In this document: positions 1-12,614 of the stretch, piece by piece
Position numbering within the stretch: position 1 is the first letter of the stretch
Layout: each line of letters starts with the position of its first letter
Origin: Nostoc linckia z4
GTDB lineage: Bacteria > Cyanobacteriota > Cyanobacteriia > Cyanobacteriales > Nostocaceae
DNA length: 64,000 nt
Direction: 5' to 3'
Assembly (NCBI RefSeq): GCF_002608075.1
Contig: NZ_LAHA01000001.1
Span: 128,757-192,756, forward strand
Made by a program: the position numbers and the translations under genes
The notes under the pieces: generated by a model
The model's input: the letters and a program-made list of their open reading frames with translations, nothing else
What the model was told of the DNA's origin: nothing
The model's database searches: none

Positions 1-376
1 CAATGGCGTAGCGGATAGAACGCTCTAACAAAGGAGCCGTTAATTGGCTTTTTTCCAAATAATCTGCGGCTCCAGCTTTCATGGCTTCTAGGTCTATTTC
101 CCAATCGCCCTGACCGGTGAGTAAAATCATTGGAGAAGAACAACCGTTGGCAATGGCTTCGCGTAATAGTTCTAGTCCATTGTGCGCCCCCAAACGGTAA
201 TCTACTAGATAAATGTCATGTTGCTGCCGAGCAATGGCGCTTCTGGCCGCTTGATAATTATTCACCCATTCTAGGTCGCACTTTGCCACCCGGAATTCGC
301 CGAACCAATAACGAGTCAATATATAATCATCTTCATCATCATCAACGAACAGAACTTTGATGGGGCTGTTGTCCAT
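1..376 (-). CDS. Response regulator receiver protein, 3' end cut by window edge
   Basis: The visible 125 residues form a CheY-like receiver domain. It has the acidic cluster VDDDEDD near the N-terminus, a phospho-acceptor Asp in YLVDYRLG, and a conserved Thr in ILLTGQGD. It would accept a phosphoryl group from a histidine kinase in the cytoplasm. The ATG at 376 is preceded by a GGGAG ribosome site. The start overlaps the end of the upstream receiver gene by 35 bases in another frame, so the two are translationally linked. The kinase at 1276-4626 is the obvious partner. The C-terminus lies outside the window, so an output domain (for example GGDEF, or PAS plus kinase) cannot be excluded. Confidence 0.85.
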   Translation of the reverse strand, partial: MDNSPIKVLFVDDDEDDYILTRYWFGEFRVAKCDLEWVNNYQAARSAIARQQHDIYLVDYRLGAHNGLELLREAIANGCSSPMILLTGQGDWEIDLEAMKAGAADYLEKSQLTAPLLERSIRYAI

Positions 377-839
377 ATTCGTCTCCCATTACTTCTGTTG
401 GCAGTTTCACAGTTTCAAACCAGTATTTTCCTACAGTTTTCATTACCTCAACTAAAGAAGCAAAAGTCACTGGCTTAATGATGAAGGAGTTTGCACCTAA
501 GTCGTAGGTATTATATATATCTTCTTCAGTACTTGAAGTTGACAGTATAATCACAGGAATTCGCCGCAGTTGGGGGTCAGTTTTTATTTCTTTGAGTGCC
601 TCAAAACCGTCTTTTTTCGGCATATTCAAATCTAATAAAATCAACCCTGGATGTGGTTTATCGCTGTCGGTGGCATATCGACCACGATGGTATAAATAAT
701 CCATCAAGTCTTCGCCATTGGTGACGATGTACAGTTCAATTGGCAATTGACTTTCTGCCAAGGCCTCACGAACTAACATCCTGTCATCTTCGTCATCATC
801 AGCCATTAAAATTGTGACGTTTGTTTCTCGACCGTTCAC
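342..839 (-). CDS. Rcp1-like single-domain response regulator
   Basis: A stand-alone receiver protein of about 165 residues. It resembles the Rcp1/CheY-like regulators that partner phytochrome-type kinases in cyanobacteria: acidic pocket ADDDEDD, phospho-acceptor Asp in LLDLNMPKKDG, Ser/Thr switch in ILSTSS and Lys in FIIKPV. There is no DNA-binding domain. The open frame runs upstream to 977, but I chose the GTG at 839. It has a strong AAGGAG site about ten bases upstream, and the receiver fold begins a few residues later. The in-frame ATG at 860 lacks a ribosome site. It lies downstream of the cyanobacteriochrome kinase on the same strand and overlaps the next receiver gene, so a phosphorelay role is likely. 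Confidence 0.85.
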   Translation of the reverse strand: MNGRETNVTILMADDDEDDRMLVREALAESQLPIELYIVTNGEDLMDYLYHRGRYATDSDKPHPGLILLDLNMPKKDGFEALKEIKTDPQLRRIPVIILSTSSTEEDIYNTYDLGANSFIIKPVTFASLVEVMKTVGKYWFETVKLPTEVMGDEYGQQPHQSSVR

Positions 840-1275
840 TATGCATCGTCTCCTTTGCATTGGTTTATTAGTATGAATCAAGTTATTAACTTGGCACAGA
901 TGGCAACTCGCACATTGACAAAAATATGCAAATATGCAGTCAATATATTCAGCTACAGAAGCTGCTTTTTTTAACAATAAACGGCATGTTGTAATCAGAA
1001 AGTCGGTATGAAAAAAACAAACTATGTTAATAAAAGTTAATTAAGCTAAAACCATGTTTCCTTCTACCTTCTGCCTTGCAGTCTCCTACTTTATCGTGAT
1101 AACAAATATTCGCTCCAACTTACTTAGTCGTCTGAAAGGGCAAATAATCGCATCTGATTAATGGTTCACATAATGGTCAATCTATACAATCAATAAGTCC
1201 CAGAAAATAAAGGGCACAATTGTACAATTAAGCTAATTTTTTGGTCTGTTCTTAATCCCTCTCTAGGAAGAAAAA
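840..1275. other. Intergenic gap between kinase and response regulators
   Basis: About 435 bases with no supported gene. The open frame of the downstream receiver extends into it, but without a ribosome site. No inverted-repeat element or clear terminator was seen. Whether kinase and regulators share a transcript cannot be decided from sequence. Confidence 0.5.
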
Positions 1276-4200
1276 TTAAGGGACAGAATTAACTGATAAT
1301 GTGACAAAAAACTTCGAGCCTTGCCCTGGTGTGCTTTGGGCTACGATCGCTCCATCATGACGTTCGATAATTTTGCGACAGATGGCTAAACCTATACCAG
1401 TCCCCTCGTATTCACCATTACTATGTAAACGTTGAAAAACATTGAAAATGCGATCGAGATACTTTTCTTCAAAACCAATACCATTATCTTCTATAACTAT
1501 TTCGCAAAGGTCAGAACTGTTACACAGTTTATTTGTTTGATTGTTTAAAATGCTGCCATAAATTTTGATTACAGGTGGTATTTGTGGGCGGTGAAATTTG
1601 AGAGCATTACCGATGAGATTTTGCAACAATTGGCGCATTTGTACCGGATCGGCTTGAATGGTGGGTAACTCGCCGATTTCTACGGTTGCTCCAGTTTGCT
1701 GGACATAGATTTCTAAATCAGATAATACTTCTTGGGCGATGTTTGCTAAATTTACCCATACAAAAGGCTGGGCCCTGGTGGTAACTCGCGAAAGTGTCAG
1801 CAAGTCTTCAATTAATGTCTGCATTCTGTTGGCAGCATTCTGCATCCGTTCTAAGTAATCCCGTCCCTGTTCCGTTAAAATATCACCGTAGGAAACCTTC
1901 AGCCGATCGCCAAAGGTTTTAATCTTACGCAGTGGTTCTTGCAAATCGTGGGAAGCCACAAATGCAAATTGCTGTAATTCTTGATTGGAACGGGCGAGTT
2001 CTTGCCGTTGGCGAATTTCTTGTTCTAAAATTTGGCTTTGAGCTAAGGCGATACCGATTTGATCTGCTAGTTGTTGCAAAAGTTCAATTTCCCAGCTAGT
2101 CCACTCACGAGGATGGGCGCACTGATGGGCAATCAACAATCCCCAGAGTTCATTTTTCAGTAAAATCGGCACTACAAGGTTGGCTTTGATGGCGAATCTT
2201 TGCAGCAATTCCATGTGACAAAGTTGAATATCGGCTTCTTTGATGTCCCTAATGGAACTAATTCCCCCCTGGCGGTAACGTTCGATACAATTTTCACGAA
2301 AGCAAAAGTCAGTAATTTCCTGCCCCATAACAACAGGCAAACCGGGAACTACTGCTTCTTGAACTGCCATAAAACAGCCATTTGGCTGTAGGCGCAAGAT
2401 TAATACCCGATCGGCAAGCAGTAGCTTTTGCACCTCTATGACGCTCGTTTGCAGAATTTCATCAATTTGTAAAGATTGACGAATTTTCAAAGTGATATTA
2501 GCGAACAATTGCGATCGCATGTTTTGGCGTTGTAATTCTGCTTGCACGCGGTTGCGTTCGCGTAGGGCGGCTTGACGTTCGGTAATATCCATCATTGCCC
2601 CCATAATTCGCACTGGCTTACCGATTTGGTCGTGGACAACGTAACCGCGATCGAACACGTAGGCGTAGGAACCATTACTGCGGCGAAAACGGTATTCATT
2701 TGACCAAAATTTTTCACCGCTCTCGATTAAAGCACGCGCTTGGTTAGCAATTCTCTGCCTGTCGTCTGGATGGATATGTTCGCTCCACCAATCAGCAGTA
2801 AAACTGATTTGCTCTGGGGAGTAACCAAACAGTGTTTGTAAAGTTTGATTCCACCACACTTTGTTAGTCAGCAAATCCCAGTCCCATAATATATCGTTGG
2901 TAGCACGGGCAACAATTTGGAAGCGTTCTTCGCTTTGACGCAATTGTTCTTCTGCTAATTTACGTTCCGTGATATCCGTATGACAACTAGTCATCCGTAC
3001 TACATTGCCATCTTCGTCCCAAACTGCCTGACCGCGATTCAAGACCCATTTGTAAGTACCATCTTTACACTGAATTCGATGTTCGCTGATGAAAAACGGA
3101 GTCATTTGGGCAAAATGATCGGCGATCGCTTGTCTAACAAATCCTCTATCATCTGGATGCAAGCGTGCTGCCCATTCATCAAAATCATCAGAAATTTCGT
3201 CTTCTTCATAACCAAGCATTTCTTTCCAACGAGTGGAAAAAAAGACTTGATGATTTTGAACGTTCCAGTCCCAAATACCATCATTACTACCCTGCACCAC
3301 TAACTGACAGCGTTCTTCGCTTTCTTTGAGGGCGTTTTCCACCTGTTGACGCTCAATGGCAGCAGCGAGAATATTAGCAATAGATTGGAGAAAATAAATT
3401 TCATCTTTGGTGAAAGTCTGGTGTCTGGTTGTGTGTGCCCCTAAAACTCCAAAAGGACGCTCTTGACCGTGAATTACTACGCTAATTCCGCTCACTACTT
3501 GATGGTCGTGTAGCAGTTGTGGCCCATTAAATCGCGTTTCGCTTCGCAAATCCTTGACAATCACCGGGCCGCAAGAAAGCAGGGTATAACCAGCTTGCGA
3601 ATTCATCAAAGCGCTGACAGTGGCCTTTCCCACCAAACCAGGTTGCCAACCAATTCCAGCCCTTAGCAGTAATGCATTACCATTTGGCAGTAGTTCTAAA
3701 ACTTTACAGTACTCAACTTTTAAGCATTGAGCGACGATGCTGACACACAAGTTCATCAATGTAGTTAAGTCTGTTCCAACTAAGGCTATTTGACTGAGTT
3801 CTGCCACCATTGCTTGCTGGTTTGCCTGAACTTCTAGTGCTTCCTCTGCTTGCTTGCGCTTGGTGATGTCTACCTCAATTGCAGACATTCCCACAGCCAT
3901 CCCTAAGGCATCCCGACAGACAACTCCTTTGCTTGCCAAATGGCGAATGCTACCATCTAGCAAAATAACTCGAAATTCAATGTCGTATTCTAGCCCATTT
4001 TTAATGGCTTGCTGGTGCGATCGCTTGACAAAATCCCGGTCTTGGGGATGAACGCGGTTAATAAAAAAATCATAAGTATCGTTAAAACTACCTTTTTTCC
4101 AACCAAAAGCTGTTTCTAGGTTACCTGAATAATTAATTTCGTTAGTCACAAAATCCCAATTCCAAATGCTCATACCAGCAGACTCTAATGCTAATCTCAG

Positions 4201-4626
4201 CTGTGCTTCTTGCAGTTGTGCTTGGGCAGTTTGCTGTTGTAATTGTTGCTTAGTACGATGAGCTTCCAGAAGACGGCGCAATCTTTGACGTAATATCGGC
4301 CATTGAATCGGCTTAGTAATAAAATCAGTAGCACCCGCAGCAAAAGCTTTTTCCACAGATGCCTGGTCATCAATATCAGTAACTATTAATACTAGTGTTT
4401 CTTTGCCATCGGAGAGTGTTTGCAGTTGAGTGCAACAACTAAAACCATCCATTTCTGGCATCATGGCATCTAACAGGACTATATCTGGGTGTAGACGAGT
4501 ATAGGTAGCGATCGCCTCTAAACCGTTACTCGCTTCTACCACCTGATACCCTGCTTCTTTTAATAGCTGACACAGATACATTCGCATTAAATGGTCGTCG
4601 TCTACAACCAAAATCAGGTTTGTCAT
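1276..4626 (-). CDS. Cyanobacteriochrome hybrid histidine kinase (REC-PAS-GAF-PAS-PAS-CBCR GAF-HisKA-HATPase)
   Basis: About 1116 residues, soluble, no membrane segments. Domains in order: receiver (2-120, Asp53 in LLDAMMP), PAS (142-262), GAF (277-427), two PAS (437-557, 567-687), second GAF (717-862), HisKA (885-950, His893 in SHDLQEP) and HATPase (992-1112, DNGIGF and GTGIGL boxes). The second GAF reads as a bilin-binding cyanobacteriochrome domain. It has DFCF (DXCF motif, Cys775), a Cys803-His804 pair and the ANLVVPIL and WGLLIAHQC segments typical of that family. It is therefore probably a light sensor that phosphorylates the two receiver proteins downstream. ATG at 4626 was chosen over an in-frame TTG at 4650; neither has a clear ribosome site. 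The N-terminal receiver suggests it also takes input from another kinase. Photocycle colour is not predictable here. Confidence 0.88.
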   Translation of the reverse strand: MTNLILVVDDDHLMRMYLCQLLKEAGYQVVEASNGLEAIATYTRLHPDIVLLDAMMPEMDGFSCCTQLQTLSDGKETLVLIVTDIDDQASVEKAFAAGATDFITKPIQWPILRQRLRRLLEAHRTKQQLQQQTAQAQLQEAQLRLALESAGMSIWNWDFVTNEINYSGNLETAFGWKKGSFNDTYDFFINRVHPQDRDFVKRSHQQAIKNGLEYDIEFRVILLDGSIRHLASKGVVCRDALGMAVGMSAIEVDITKRKQAEEALEVQANQQAMVAELSQIALVGTDLTTLMNLCVSIVAQCLKVEYCKVLELLPNGNALLLRAGIGWQPGLVGKATVSALMNSQAGYTLLSCGPVIVKDLRSETRFNGPQLLHDHQVVSGISVVIHGQERPFGVLGAHTTRHQTFTKDEIYFLQSIANILAAAIERQQVENALKESEERCQLVVQGSNDGIWDWNVQNHQVFFSTRWKEMLGYEEDEISDDFDEWAARLHPDDRGFVRQAIADHFAQMTPFFISEHRIQCKDGTYKWVLNRGQAVWDEDGNVVRMTSCHTDITERKLAEEQLRQSEERFQIVARATNDILWDWDLLTNKVWWNQTLQTLFGYSPEQISFTADWWSEHIHPDDRQRIANQARALIESGEKFWSNEYRFRRSNGSYAYVFDRGYVVHDQIGKPVRIMGAMMDITERQAALRERNRVQAELQRQNMRSQLFANITLKIRQSLQIDEILQTSVIEVQKLLLADRVLILRLQPNGCFMAVQEAVVPGLPVVMGQEITDFCFRENCIERYRQGGISSIRDIKEADIQLCHMELLQRFAIKANLVVPILLKNELWGLLIAHQCAHPREWTSWEIELLQQLADQIGIALAQSQILEQEIRQRQELARSNQELQQFAFVASHDLQEPLRKIKTFGDRLKVSYGDILTEQGRDYLERMQNAANRMQTLIEDLLTLSRVTTRAQPFVWVNLANIAQEVLSDLEIYVQQTGATVEIGELPTIQADPVQMRQLLQNLIGNALKFHRPQIPPVIKIYGSILNNQTNKLCNSSDLCEIVIEDNGIGFEEKYLDRIFNVFQRLHSNGEYEGTGIGLAICRKIIERHDGAIVAQSTPGQGSKFFVTLSVNSVP

Positions 4627-5405
4627 TTGTGTTTGTGATTTGTCAAACAAGTTTCAGAGACACTGTTGGCGAATTAGAGTTCGCCGATCTTTTGGTTGAG
4701 GGAACAGGGAACTCTTAACAATGAGGGTTTTAATTAGAAACCCACCGATGCCTAAGAAGTCCGGCGACTGCGTCGGGCGGGGTAACACTCCCCTTCCAAC
4801 ACCTCCTCTGTTGCCTCTTGCTTGTTAAGAGTTCCCTTTAAACCCCTTTTGTTCGCTGCACAAGAGTTAATTGGATATTTTTTACTTGTCAGTCCCTAAG
4901 ACTTTGAAAATACGGTCTAGACCTTATTGTACTGAGTACTATTGTGAATTTTTTTATCTACTACTGTGGGAATCGCTGTTTTCCACTTAAAAGTCCTTTG
5001 TACATCAATGTTTTGGGCTAACTTGAACTAAATATCAAGATTTCTTGACATTTATATCTAAAAATTAGATGCATATCGCTTAAATGTCATAAAAACATGA
5101 CATAGCGATCCCACAATAGCTAATAAATTCGTGGAATAGGCAAAAAATCTATTCCAACCCCTTGATCCCTACATATGCTTAGTGGTTAATATTGACTTAA
5201 CAAATACAGCTTCTCCGATCCCAAAGAAATGCTAATTTCGGCATAGCTAAAGGATTATTCATAGGAAACGACTTCAATTTAAAAACAGACTAAAAACTTA
5301 AAAACTGGGCAAAACCAGGAGTCAGGAATAAGAAATTCATCTGGAGTGGATGACATTTTATATCGCATTCTTTAACCAGGGGAAATCATTTACCGCTTAA
5401 ACTAC
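4627..5405. other. Intergenic region with inverted-repeat element
   Basis: Nearly 780 bases without a supported gene between the divergent kinase and DUF4912 genes. Its left part holds the 15-bp inverted repeat at 4707-4836. The rest is AT-rich and presumably carries both promoters; I could not place them. Confidence 0.5.
4707..4836. repeat. 130-bp element with perfect 15-bp terminal inverted repeats
   Basis: GGGAACTCTTAACAA (4707-4721) is the exact reverse complement of TTGTTAAGAGTTCCC (4822-4836). The 100-bp interior is GC-richer than its surroundings and has no open reading frame of note. This looks like a small non-autonomous mobile element (MITE-like). No second copy was seen in the window. 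Confidence 0.6.
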
Positions 5406-8486: not shown

Positions 8487-11400
8487 TCAGAAAATTAGGC
8501 TAGCGATCGCCCGCACTAACTTTGCTGGTTCCACTGGTTTTGTAATATGCTTATCGAATCCAGCGGCAATTGCTTGTTGATAATCAACTTCAGCAGCATA
8601 AGCAGTTAAAGCAATGGCCAAAATTTTTCCTCCCAGTTCTGGAGGCATATCTCTGATTCGACGGATCAACATATAGCCGTCTACTTCAGGCATTCCAATG
8701 TCACTTACAAGTAGATTTGGCTGTAAATCAGGGAGAATTTTTAGTGCTTCCATAGCGGAGTCTACCTGCGTTACCATTGCCCCAGACTGTTCCAAAATGA
8801 AAGCAATTAACTCTCGCGTATCGCGCTCATCATCCACCAACAGCACTTTCACCCCACTCAAATCGGGCAAATCATTTGATTGTCCATCTATTTCCCGATG
8901 CTTGAGATGAACCTTAATCAATGGCAACATAACTGTAAAGGCTGCTCCCTGTTCTTCGCCCAAACTTTCTGCCTTTACTGTACCGCCATGTAATTCCACG
9001 ATGTGACGAACAATGGCCAATCCTAACCCCAACCCCCCGAATTTTCTGGTGGTTGCGCCATCAGCTTGTCGGAAGTAATCAAAGACGAATGGTAAAAAGT
9101 CGGCGTTAATTCCTTTGCCTGTATCGCATACTTGCAGTTGAGCATGAGAATCAACACAAGCTAAACTGATTTCTACTTGTCCGCCTTGGGGTGTAAACTT
9201 AATGGCATTAGAAAGCAGATTCCAAATTACTTGTTGTAAGCGGACTGAATCACCTGCTACTAAAAATTTGGAATCGTAGCCTTGGTGCGCCGACAGCACC
9301 ACTTGAATTTGAGATTTAAGATTGTCTGGTTGTTTATTAAACTCAATGGATGCTAAATTTCTGTTAGTATTTTCTGATGCCAAATCTAAAATCACAAATC
9401 GCAAATTGATAGATTTAGCTTGGGCAGCTAAACGCACGGTTTCTAAAGCTGCGGCGATCGCACCGACTAAATTCACAGGAGCAACATTCAAGCTGAGTTT
9501 TCCTTGCAAAATGCGAGAAACATCCAGCAAGTCTTCAATTAATTGAGTTTGCAGCTTCGCATTACGCTCAATGGTTTCCAAAGCACGAGCGGTGGTTGCG
9601 GCGTCATACTTTTTAGTTTGCAGCATCTTTGACCAACCAAGGATGGGATTTAGCGGCGTGCGAAGTTCGTGGGAAAGAACTGCTAAAAATTCATCTTTGA
9701 TGCGGTTAGCCTGAATTAATTGCTCTTTTCGTCGCTGTAACGAAGCCATTAATTCAAAACGTTCCAAAGCAACCGCCACCTGATCTGAAGTTGCTTGCAG
9801 TAGGGCAGTTTCCTCTAAAGTAAAGTGCATACGCCTGCAACTGGCAAAAGAAAGTACACCGAGCAGCTTTCCTTGCACAATCAATGGTTGACCTGCATAG
9901 GCTGTAATTCCCAAACTATGAAGTATGTGTGCATGGGGATGGTTTGAGTGGGGCACGTCGTTGAGGATAATTTGACGCCGTTCTTGGGCTACTAGTCCAC
10001 AGATTCCTTGATCGAATTCTAAGTATTCAATTGTTTTAAATACTTCTTCTGTAATGCCGTTCCAAGCTACCAAATGAAGTTTATTTTTATTTTCGTGGGT
10101 TTCAATCAAATAGTTAAAGTAAAAATCCAAATCCATCTGCGCCGAGAGTTTACTGAACAAAGCGTTCATCAAATCCAAGGGGCGCTCGGTTGACAGCAAA
10201 TCGCTGGTTGTTTCAAATAGCAACTTCAGCCCTTCACTACGTTCTTGTAAGGCTTTTTCTGCTTGTTGGCGTTCTCTAAGGGCCCGTTCGCGTTCGGTAA
10301 TGTCAACTGCAACTCCTCCCACCAACAGTTGTCCGGAGGGGTCTGCAATGGGAAACTTGTATACTAAAAATTCCCCAAGGCTGCCATCTGGGCGTGGGGC
10401 AGACTCAATCACTTCCAAGACTTGATTCGTGTCGGTAACAGTTCTCACATTATTGAGGAATAACTGAGCAATTTCGGCTGGATATAGCTCAAAAATGTTT
10501 TTATTGATGGGGTTGTTTGTTGCTAAATTAAATGTGCGGAAATAAGTGGGGCTGAGATAAAGTACGCGTCCCTGTGCATCTGTAATCCAAGCTGCCGCCG
10601 GACTGTTGTCCATAAAAGCTTGGAAGCGTTCTTCACTTTGGTGCAAAGCTTTTTCGATTTGCTGGCGTTCGCTAATATCAAGAACAAACATCACTGATTT
10701 GTGCCGAGATTCTCCTACTAGGGAGTAGCCAATAACAACCGGTACGCGAGAACCATCTTTGCGAATGTATTCTTTTTCATAAGGAGTACAAGCTCCTTTT
10801 GACTTGGCTTCAGCGATGGCCAGTTCATCCAAATAACGATACTCTGGTGGTGTAATTTCAGTCCAGCGTAGTTTAAGAACTCGCAAATCCTCTTGGGTGT
10901 AGCCGACAATTCGCAGAAACTCGTCATTGGCTTCATTGATGCTACCTTCCACATCGCCAAATATAATGCCGACTACATTCGCTTCTACAAAACTCCTCAG
11001 CTGCTCCTCACTAGCTTTAACTGCCGCTTCTGCCTGCTTGCGAGCAGTGATATTCATGATGCTTACCAATACGCTGTCAAATTTAGCATTTTCTGACCCA
11101 AAGCTAATGGTAAACAGGACGTTGAGACGTTCTCCCTGGAGAGTTTTGAGAATTGTCTCTGATTCCAAATAAGTTTCCCCATCAGTAATTGCCAACAATT
11201 CTTCGATAAATACCTCTAGGGTTTCCGGTACGAATATTTGTTGGAGTGACACCAAAAGTTCATTTTTATTTTCAGCGCCAAACATTCGCACGGCGGCATT
11301 ATTCACGTTGACAATTCTCACCATGTCAACGGCTTGTTGAATAAATTCAGGGTGTTCGGCAAAAAAGGCACGAAAATTTTCCACACCTTGGGCTTTCAAA

Positions 11401-12614
11401 TTATCCAGCGCTGCTTTTACAAGGGAAAAATCTTCTTCCAGAATTGACACACCTGCGGCTTCAAAAATATAGCGATATTTTCTCTCCTGTTCTTGCAGCG
11501 CCTCTTGTGTCTGTTTGCGTTGGCTGATGTCACGAAAAAAAATATCGAGACCATCTTCACAAGGGTAAGCGTGAATCTCTAACCACAAGTCATATTCGCA
11601 TGGCAAATAATAATGATGTTCAAAATAAACGGGAATTTGTTCTGCCATCGCTCGTTGGTATTGATGCTCTAGGTTTGTACCTACTAATGCTGGCCACTCT
11701 TCCCAGTGGGACTTACCAAGAACTTCTGTACGAGATTTGTGGTTAATTCGCTCTGCTTCAGCATTTTGGTAAATGATTCGCCAATCTCTGTCTAAACTGA
11801 TGAAAGCATCACTCATGTTTTCCAAAGTGCGCGTCACTCGCTCATTGGCTTGTTGTAGTGCCGCTTGTGCTTGTTTGCGTTCGCTCAAATCAACAACAAA
11901 GCCAATAACGGTTTCTTGGTCATCTTCTACGAGGACAGAACCAAGCAAAACAGGAACGCGAGAACCATCTTTGCAAATATATTCTTTTTCAAAAGGTTTA
12001 CAAACTCCGCTGCTTCTGAGTTCCTCTACGGAACGTTCACTGACAATCAAAAACTCAGGCGCGGTGATTTCGCGCCAGTCTATTTGCTTACCAGACAAAT
12101 CCTCTCGCGTATAACCGACCATCTTCAAAAAAGCATCATTGGCTTCGATGATGTCACCGTTGAGGTCGCTGGCGATGACTCCAATGATGTTAGATTCTGC
12201 GAGTCGGCTAAACCGCATTTCGCTATCTCGTAATAACTTTAGACTTGACTCTGCTTTGGCTTTAGCAGTTTGTAATTCTGAGAAAAGTGCAGTTATTAAT
12301 AAAGATACTAATGAAAAAGTTGTTAATCGCACCAAAACGCTAAAGTTTGGGATCTCAAAGGAGTAGACTGGTTGAATGAGAAAGTAGAAGGCGATTATGG
12401 CAGATAAAGCGATCGCTAGCATTCCCACTTCCATGCCACCATACCACGCGCTAACCGCCACAGCAGCATAAAAAAACGTAAACACACTAGGATCGAATAC
12501 TGGTTGTAATAATCGCGCCATCATTAAGGCAACTATTATCGCCAATATCATCACGCCATAAATTGCTGAGCGAGAGCGCATCATCAAGAATTGTTCTAGT
12601 AATTTGACGCTCAT
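8487..12614 (-). CDS. Membrane-bound multi-PAS hybrid histidine kinase
   Basis: 1375 residues. N-terminal membrane region of about four helices (15-120, DUF4118/KdpD-like). Five PAS or PAS-like domains follow (about 130-248, 255-372, 375-525, 535-650, 655-775), then GAF (795-950), HisKA (His982 in SHELRTPLNPILGW), HATPase (1115-1230, DTGKG and GLGLGL boxes) and a C-terminal receiver (1255-1372, Asp1305 in VSDIGMP). The GAF lacks bilin-type cysteines, so the signal is unknown. Repeated PAS modules with near-identical phrases (PYEKEYIRKDGSRVPV, PFEKEYICKDGSRVPV) suggest internal duplication. Its ATG lies one base after the stop of the XRE gene, indicating translational coupling. Confidence 0.9.
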   Translation of the reverse strand: MSVKLLEQFLMMRSRSAIYGVMILAIIVALMMARLLQPVFDPSVFTFFYAAVAVSAWYGGMEVGMLAIALSAIIAFYFLIQPVYSFEIPNFSVLVRLTTFSLVSLLITALFSELQTAKAKAESSLKLLRDSEMRFSRLAESNIIGVIASDLNGDIIEANDAFLKMVGYTREDLSGKQIDWREITAPEFLIVSERSVEELRSSGVCKPFEKEYICKDGSRVPVLLGSVLVEDDQETVIGFVVDLSERKQAQAALQQANERVTRTLENMSDAFISLDRDWRIIYQNAEAERINHKSRTEVLGKSHWEEWPALVGTNLEHQYQRAMAEQIPVYFEHHYYLPCEYDLWLEIHAYPCEDGLDIFFRDISQRKQTQEALQEQERKYRYIFEAAGVSILEEDFSLVKAALDNLKAQGVENFRAFFAEHPEFIQQAVDMVRIVNVNNAAVRMFGAENKNELLVSLQQIFVPETLEVFIEELLAITDGETYLESETILKTLQGERLNVLFTISFGSENAKFDSVLVSIMNITARKQAEAAVKASEEQLRSFVEANVVGIIFGDVEGSINEANDEFLRIVGYTQEDLRVLKLRWTEITPPEYRYLDELAIAEAKSKGACTPYEKEYIRKDGSRVPVVIGYSLVGESRHKSVMFVLDISERQQIEKALHQSEERFQAFMDNSPAAAWITDAQGRVLYLSPTYFRTFNLATNNPINKNIFELYPAEIAQLFLNNVRTVTDTNQVLEVIESAPRPDGSLGEFLVYKFPIADPSGQLLVGGVAVDITERERALRERQQAEKALQERSEGLKLLFETTSDLLSTERPLDLMNALFSKLSAQMDLDFYFNYLIETHENKNKLHLVAWNGITEEVFKTIEYLEFDQGICGLVAQERRQIILNDVPHSNHPHAHILHSLGITAYAGQPLIVQGKLLGVLSFASCRRMHFTLEETALLQATSDQVAVALERFELMASLQRRKEQLIQANRIKDEFLAVLSHELRTPLNPILGWSKMLQTKKYDAATTARALETIERNAKLQTQLIEDLLDVSRILQGKLSLNVAPVNLVGAIAAALETVRLAAQAKSINLRFVILDLASENTNRNLASIEFNKQPDNLKSQIQVVLSAHQGYDSKFLVAGDSVRLQQVIWNLLSNAIKFTPQGGQVEISLACVDSHAQLQVCDTGKGINADFLPFVFDYFRQADGATTRKFGGLGLGLAIVRHIVELHGGTVKAESLGEEQGAAFTVMLPLIKVHLKHREIDGQSNDLPDLSGVKVLLVDDERDTRELIAFILEQSGAMVTQVDSAMEALKILPDLQPNLLVSDIGMPEVDGYMLIRRIRDMPPELGGKILAIALTAYAAEVDYQQAIAAGFDKHITKPVEPAKLVRAIASLIF

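Follow-up and report, generated by a model that had tools for sequence, protein, structure and literature searches.

A probable light-regulated DXCF-type cyanobacteriochrome kinase in a three-gene cassette of Nostoc linckia z4

We analysed a 64,000-nucleotide stretch of the 9.0 Mb genome of Nostoc linckia z4 (the window, G000:C1:128757-192756, to whose positions unprefixed coordinates refer), which begins with part of a three-gene cassette on the minus strand: a hybrid histidine kinase, a single-domain response regulator (RR1) and the 5' end of a third gene (gene 3). The open reading frame of the kinase (1276-4650(-), 1124 aa) takes its longest form from a TTG codon at 4650; translation more likely begins at the ATG at 4626, given that in several orthologs a stop codon lies just upstream of this point. 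Pfam matches give the domain order REC-PAS-GAF-PAS-PAS-GAF-HisKA-HATPase and confirm the N-terminal receiver proposed in a preliminary description of this DNA. Among 25 of 162 NCBIfam matches listed for the kinase, only the general PAS model TIGR00229 exceeds its curated cut-off. The gene and its domains are as follows.

1276..4626, minus strand: predicted cyanobacteriochrome (CBCR) hybrid histidine kinase
4279..4614, minus strand: N-terminal receiver, residues 13-124 (Pfam Response_reg, 6e-27)
3847..4173, minus strand: first PAS domain, about residues 160-268 (PAS_3 in three stretches, boundaries set by hand)
3352..3774, minus strand: first GAF domain, residues 293-433 (GAF_2; CBCR cysteine motifs absent)
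2986..3246, minus strand: second PAS domain, residues 469-555 (PAS_3)
2578..2859, minus strand: third PAS domain, residues 598-691 (PAS_9)
2044..2466, minus strand: DXCF-type cyanobacteriochrome GAF domain, residues 729-869 (Pfam, phmmer, tree, model, Foldseek)
1780..1977, minus strand: HisKA domain, residues 892-957 (Pfam; phospho-acceptor H901 numbered from ortholog alignment)
1291..1650, minus strand: HATPase_c domain, residues 1001-1120 (Pfam)

The last GAF domain had been singled out as a DXCF cyanobacteriochrome from a DFCF motif with a Cys-His pair 28 residues on (C783 and C811) and from ANLVVPIL and WGLLIAHQC blocks, all of which are present, and this identity is supported by alignment, predicted fold and phylogeny. 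Alignment with TePixJ, the check that had been suggested, places DFCF on DPCF and LCH on ECH with zero gaps and with the same 28-residue spacing between the cysteines. TePixJ residues D492, C494, C522, H523 and N535 all have equivalents in the window GAF (D781, C783, C811, H812 and N824). Four pocket sites are central to what follows.

2302..2304, minus strand: C783, DXCF second cysteine (TePixJ C494), from the TePixJ alignment
2287..2289, minus strand: C788, extra cysteine at the TePixJ W499 site (Tyr in 21/21 GAF-bearing same-genus orthologs)
2263..2265, minus strand: G796, where Arg is usual (TePixJ R507), from ortholog comparison
2215..2220, minus strand: C811-H812, canonical bilin cysteine and histidine (TePixJ C522-H523), from the TePixJ alignment

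A phmmer search of PDB chains with this GAF returned 33 distinct sequences at E up to 0.001, including RcaE (8k9o, 1.4e-42), PPHK (6oap, 2.1e-40) and TePixJ (3vv4, 1.2e-30). An AlphaFold model of the domain, built from a 37-row alignment, has a mean predicted local distance difference test score of 90.1 and a predicted template modelling score of 0.87. The best 50 of 427 Foldseek matches to PDB (E up to 0.001) are phytochrome-superfamily structures throughout, and the predicted fold, which matches the structures of PPHK, RcaE and TePixJ, is a phytochrome-type GAF fold. A tree of 51 rows puts the window GAF together with the DXCF members of its ortholog group, close to the RcaE-type clade and distant from the AnPixJ/NpR6012g4 group; the fork uniting it with the RcaE-type clade is weak (89/88).

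Comparison with these characterized sensors delimits the type. The window GAF shares with TePixJ (4GLQ/3VV4) the DXCF second cysteine, the canonical CH, the cysteine spacing, the equivalents of D492, H523 and N535 and the GAF fold; it differs in having C788 and G796 at the W499 and R507 positions and in its output, which is a histidine kinase rather than the methyl-accepting chemotaxis protein of TePixJ. RcaE (7CKV, 8K9O) gives the top PDB score and occupies the adjoining clade in trees, whereas the window GAF has a second cysteine and carries F782, H812 and N824 at the columns of the Glu, Leu and Lys (E/L/K) of RcaE-type sensors. PPHK (6OAP), the top Foldseek match, likewise holds a CBCR GAF within a histidine kinase but lacks the cysteine at the DXCF site (DQYF). 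The WXDXXL motif given for extended red/green CBCRs in the available text of PMC11284453 is absent, this stretch reading I779-T-D-F-C-F. According to the same text, typical DXCF GAFs with phycoviolobilin absorb blue light in the dark state and form a green photoproduct; DXCF photoproducts as a group are described as spanning teal to orange (PMC6628166, available text).

Downstream of the kinase lie the two putative output genes.

342..860, minus strand: RR1, Rcp1/RcpA-like single-domain response regulator (PDB 1k68 RcpA, 1.9e-35; 1i3c Rcp1, 1.5e-30)
1..376, minus strand: gene 3, 5' end (REC domain); the gene exits the window to G000:C1:127246

These had been described as two overlapping receiver genes. 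The overlap is real (342-376) and RR1 is a receiver, ranking RcpA first and Rcp1 fourth among solved proteins; the second gene is instead the 5' end of a hybrid kinase. The frame at 2-376 was rejected as a lone receiver, since the window edge cuts a REC-PAS-HisKA-HATPase-REC gene, a make-up read from the intact gene 3 of locus L033 (629 aa scanned). The full span of gene 3 in the window strain (G000:C1:127246-129132; L009:15244-17133) contains one in-frame TAG just outside the window. In each of the 14 relatives examined from the genus the frame is open and measures 635-647 aa between stops. Gene 3 is probably truncated in this strain, so that RR1 would be the likeliest surviving output. A branched phosphorelay through the N-terminal REC, RR1 and the gene 3 receivers is possible.

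Cph1-Rcp1 and CphA-RcpA are two-component pairs. The window arrangement resembles them in that a bilin-type kinase adjoins an Rcp1-like single-domain receiver, and differs from them in having a CBCR GAF rather than PAS-GAF-PHY, in the additional REC at the N-terminus of the kinase and in the presence of a hybrid kinase as third gene. Gene 3 looks unlike RcaC, because no DNA-binding domain was found in it and its HPTransfase match is partial, below cut-off and inside the HATPase region. Close to the cassette, at 8487-12614 (-), lies a further large hybrid kinase (DUF4118-PAS-GAF-HK-REC, 1375 aa).

The kinase was found in 23 of 53 same-genus genomes, its own included (E up to 1e-200), and the CBCR GAF is present in 21 of the 22 other orthologs. 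Both cysteines, with CH or CY, are kept in 20 of these 21, the exception being L034 (DSWF). The order kinase, Rcp1-like receiver, hybrid kinase is conserved in 14/14 same-genus orthologs checked; eight further orthologs were read with short flanks and stand outside this full-set scoring, RR1 being visible beside two of them (L148 and L153). The genome of the window strain has a diverged paralogous set on contig C47 (L126:1036-3753 and L126:2-1023), consisting of a CBCR kinase (905 aa, DPCF...CH with the Tyr and Arg), an Rcp-like receiver and an overlapping REC-PAS gene. In addition, at least 10 further dual-cysteine DXCF GAFs (D-X-C-F with CH or CY) occur in the 20 own-genome regions examined, and the window protein is, by its motifs, one among several DXCF cyanobacteriochromes of its genome. 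A separate locus of this genome, L145 (G000:C71), contains a 1757-residue frame with seven consecutive GAF matches; in six of these the canonical cysteine site reads CH or CY.

The cell can probably make the chromophore for such a GAF. Three bilin reductases exceed the Pfam cut-off, and NCBIfam, again above cut-off, names them as phycocyanobilin:ferredoxin (PcyA), phycoerythrobilin:ferredoxin and 15,16-dihydrobiliverdin:ferredoxin oxidoreductases; heme oxygenase is represented by two full-length matches and a short third fragment. At G000:C21:166133-167747 two adjoining bilin reductases, both over NCBIfam cut-offs, represent the pair of reactions leading to phycoerythrobilin, which makes synthesis of this bilin by the host probable as well.

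Gene 3 of L033 served as the query in a wider search that covered 291 genomes of the order. Of these, 107 match at E up to 1e-170, many of them only in part; 48 near-full-length places were taken among the matches listed (two at 52-53% identity were left out) and their upstream DNA was read. A kinase with a CBCR-type GAF lies upstream at 38 of these places. At two others no CBCR GAF was detected in the kinase (L164, and L197, which is cut by a contig end), and at eight no upstream kinase was detected, one of these (L182) being largely unreadable there owing to runs of N. All eight fall in the window's own family (15 places); a CBCR GAF is present at 32 of the remaining 33. A tblastn search of plasmids with the window GAF gave five records at E up to 1e-20, the best at 60% identity.

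Taken together, these data suggest that the protein is probably a DXCF-type cyanobacteriochrome whose histidine kinase is regulated by light. This reading rests on the ungapped alignment of both cysteines with TePixJ, the matching fold, the tree placement and the conserved pocket residues, together with a GAF that is not under relaxed selection (see below), the presence of bilin synthesis genes, the RcpA-like nature of RR1 and the conserved gene order. Bilin binding, colour, phosphotransfer and the direction of signalling are inferred for this protein, and the mechanism is drawn by analogy with TePixJ and Cph1-Rcp1. C811 of the last GAF would be the covalent attachment site for phycocyanobilin, which heme oxygenase and PcyA would supply. 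C783 would form a second, light-labile bond to C10 of the bilin, so that the dark state would absorb blue light and the photoproduct light of longer wavelength. The change in the GAF would pass via its C-terminal helix towards HisKA; H901 would be phosphorylated and the phosphate transferred mainly to the adjoining RR1, the kinase's own REC and the gene 3 REC being further possible phosphate sinks.

A number of observations weigh against this reading. C788, G796, N787 (TePixJ H498) and L815 (TePixJ Q526) all depart from TePixJ, the first two also being unlike most orthologs; the two nearest relatives are altered at the motif itself, one having DSWF, with loss of the second cysteine, and the other CY; and the texts consulted gave no spectra or phosphotransfer data on this ortholog group. 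The CY of L033 was considered as a lesion and dropped, since CY at the canonical site occurs in other dual-cysteine members. The available text of PMC11284453 describes one DXCF GAF that isomerizes phycocyanobilin without the second cysteine, so the same loss does not necessarily abolish bilin chemistry in L034.

The pocket substitutions were set against a table of 64 GAFs (window, 21 orthologs, 38 cassettes and four outgroups; L055 and L177 are apparently one genome), 52 of which have both cysteines. At the C788 site these 52 have Tyr in 49 cases, Phe in one and Cys in two, the window and L155; the position corresponding to R507 holds Arg in 36, His in nine, Gly and Gln in two each, and Leu, Glu and Ala in one each. 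Among the 21 orthologs this latter position is Arg in 16, Gly in two, Gln in two and Leu in one. The other dual-cysteine DXCF GAFs examined in the window genome have Tyr or Phe at the C788 site, with a single Gly (L134), and L071 (Nostoc sp. FACHB-152) has Trp. In TePixJ the B-ring propionate contacts are H498 and W499 (PMC6955287, available text), and the aromatic one, Tyr or Phe in most relatives, is replaced by C788 in the window GAF; it is a pocket contact rather than a family-defining motif. R507 was initially expected to be a propionate contact too. Its replacement was dropped as a known functional loss, as the available text of this crystal paper lists H498 and W499 instead and ascribes the R507 contact solely to an adjacent molecule of the crystal lattice. 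The G796 substitution may be mild, because this position varies among otherwise intact relatives. In this strain an extra cysteine at a propionate contact together with the lost Arg may shift the stability, kinetics or colour of the pocket.

The strongest alternative, which we nevertheless consider unlikely, is that the GAF has lost or is losing light sensing, so that it folds and couples to the kinase without bilin or photoconversion while the other PAS, GAF and REC domains drive the kinase. The missing pocket Tyr and Arg and the altered motifs of the nearest relatives fit such a loss, as does the stop in gene 3 of the window strain. The sensor is labile in the window's own family: in the same-genus L153, residues about 737-854 of the CBCR GAF are deleted out of frame and the kinase is split, and in L164 (genome G331) the cassette kinase has shrunk to a 414-aa PAS-HK without GAF domains. 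The upstream regions alone are an unsafe guide to kinase loss, gene 3 being inverted relative to shared neighbours in L157, L160, L162 and L163, and whole genomes were searched with the kinase (E up to 1e-60) for the nine own-family genomes concerned, namely the eight kinase-less ones and G331. For seven of the nine, the matches were all partial and at 59% identity or below (G076, G323, G087, G163 and G129), or there was no match in the sequence searched (G194 and G335); G271 has a match elsewhere in its genome (65%/54%), and G331 only the 414-aa form.

Against such a loss stand the retention of both cysteines, D781, H812 and N824, and the pattern of selection across the GAF as a whole. Pairwise ratios of nonsynonymous to synonymous substitution (dN/dS) were calculated per domain for 15 chosen pairs, a domain-level test whose reach does not extend to a single-site change. 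For the GAF they are 0.12-0.14 in the window trio and 0.06-0.23 in the other 12 pairs, the other domains of the window trio giving 0.08-0.25; for the pocket stretch (residues 776-830) they are 0.15-0.24 in the trio and 0.00-0.37 in the others. At the domain level the window GAF thus shows no relaxed selection.

Somewhat less likely again is a retuned triple-cysteine variant, in which C788 joins the photocycle through an alternative adduct, a redox switch or changed kinetics. This would accord with purifying selection on the GAF and with L155, a DHCF protein from another genus that has Cys at the C788 site and a changed R507 position (Glu). L155 lies outside the Nostoc clade in a 53-row GAF tree, so this cysteine arose twice or moved between lineages. 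Its rarity among the dual-cysteine GAFs tabulated speaks against this reading, and the equivalent TePixJ site contacts the propionate, not C10, in the available text of PMC6955287. A literature search for a third cysteine in cyanobacteriochromes returned nothing; the titles and abstract beginnings covered, a scope outside which the main DXCF lineage papers fall, describe neither the cassette nor a third pocket cysteine. That this is a generic PAS/GAF hybrid kinase with CBCR-like motifs by chance, for which only the common types of the remaining domains speak, is highly improbable, chance being ruled out by the whole-domain alignment, the fold and the tree.

Beyond the reading of the window kinase as a DXCF photosensor, the cassette links this type to RcaE-type sensors, as RcaE-like GAFs occupy the same three-gene cassette in other families. 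The 38 cassette GAFs comprise 21 dual-cysteine CH/CY forms, six dual-cysteine CL forms (DECF/EECF), six RcaE-like forms (EVF), four without the second cysteine (DDYF, EDYF, DDYL and DGYL) and one without the canonical cysteine. This last GAF (L158) reads NTCL, with a Cys at the DXCF site, and has Leu-Tyr in place of the canonical cysteine. In the 53-row tree the DECF/CL GAFs and the DXYF GAFs with CL or CF form a clade (96/90) whose sister group is the RcaE-type GAFs (99/96 for the two combined). All six DECF/EECF members (L167, L181, L192, L198, L199 and L200) combine the DXCF cysteine with Glu at X, Leu after the canonical cysteine and Lys at the TePixJ N535 column (DECF or EECF ... CL ... 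AKL), matching RcaE; in the RcaE-like cassette GAFs themselves Glu and Lys occur in 6/6 and Leu in 4/6. Hirose et al. (2013) are reported to have traced the protochromic photocycle of RcaE to E217, L249 and K261. A two-cysteine protochromic CBCR has been reported, to judge by a title in a reference list, and the combination of the cysteine with E/L/K would therefore not be without precedent. The trees of gene 3 and of the GAF conflict for L183 and L185, which group with DXYF/DECF GAFs in the GAF tree and with DPCF neighbours in the gene 3 tree; sensor replacement is thus as possible as stepwise mutation.

We tentatively propose, as a conjecture that may well prove wrong, that the cassette is a chassis with a repeatedly recoloured photosensor, in which the third pocket cysteine of two lineages (D-X-C-F-N3-C, lying five residues beyond the DXCF cysteine) alters the two-cysteine photocycle and the DECF/EECF...CL...AKL clade consists of protochromic sensors with two cysteines that form a bridge between blue-type DXCF photoreceptors and green/red RcaE. 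The cassette offers a natural series within one signalling context, running from intact DXCF sensors through those with the second cysteine lost, an extra cysteine, the GAF deleted or the kinase absent to RcaE-type and mixed forms. This series makes the loss or change of colour in DXCF sensors, and the possible DXCF ancestry of RcaE-type sensors, directly testable.

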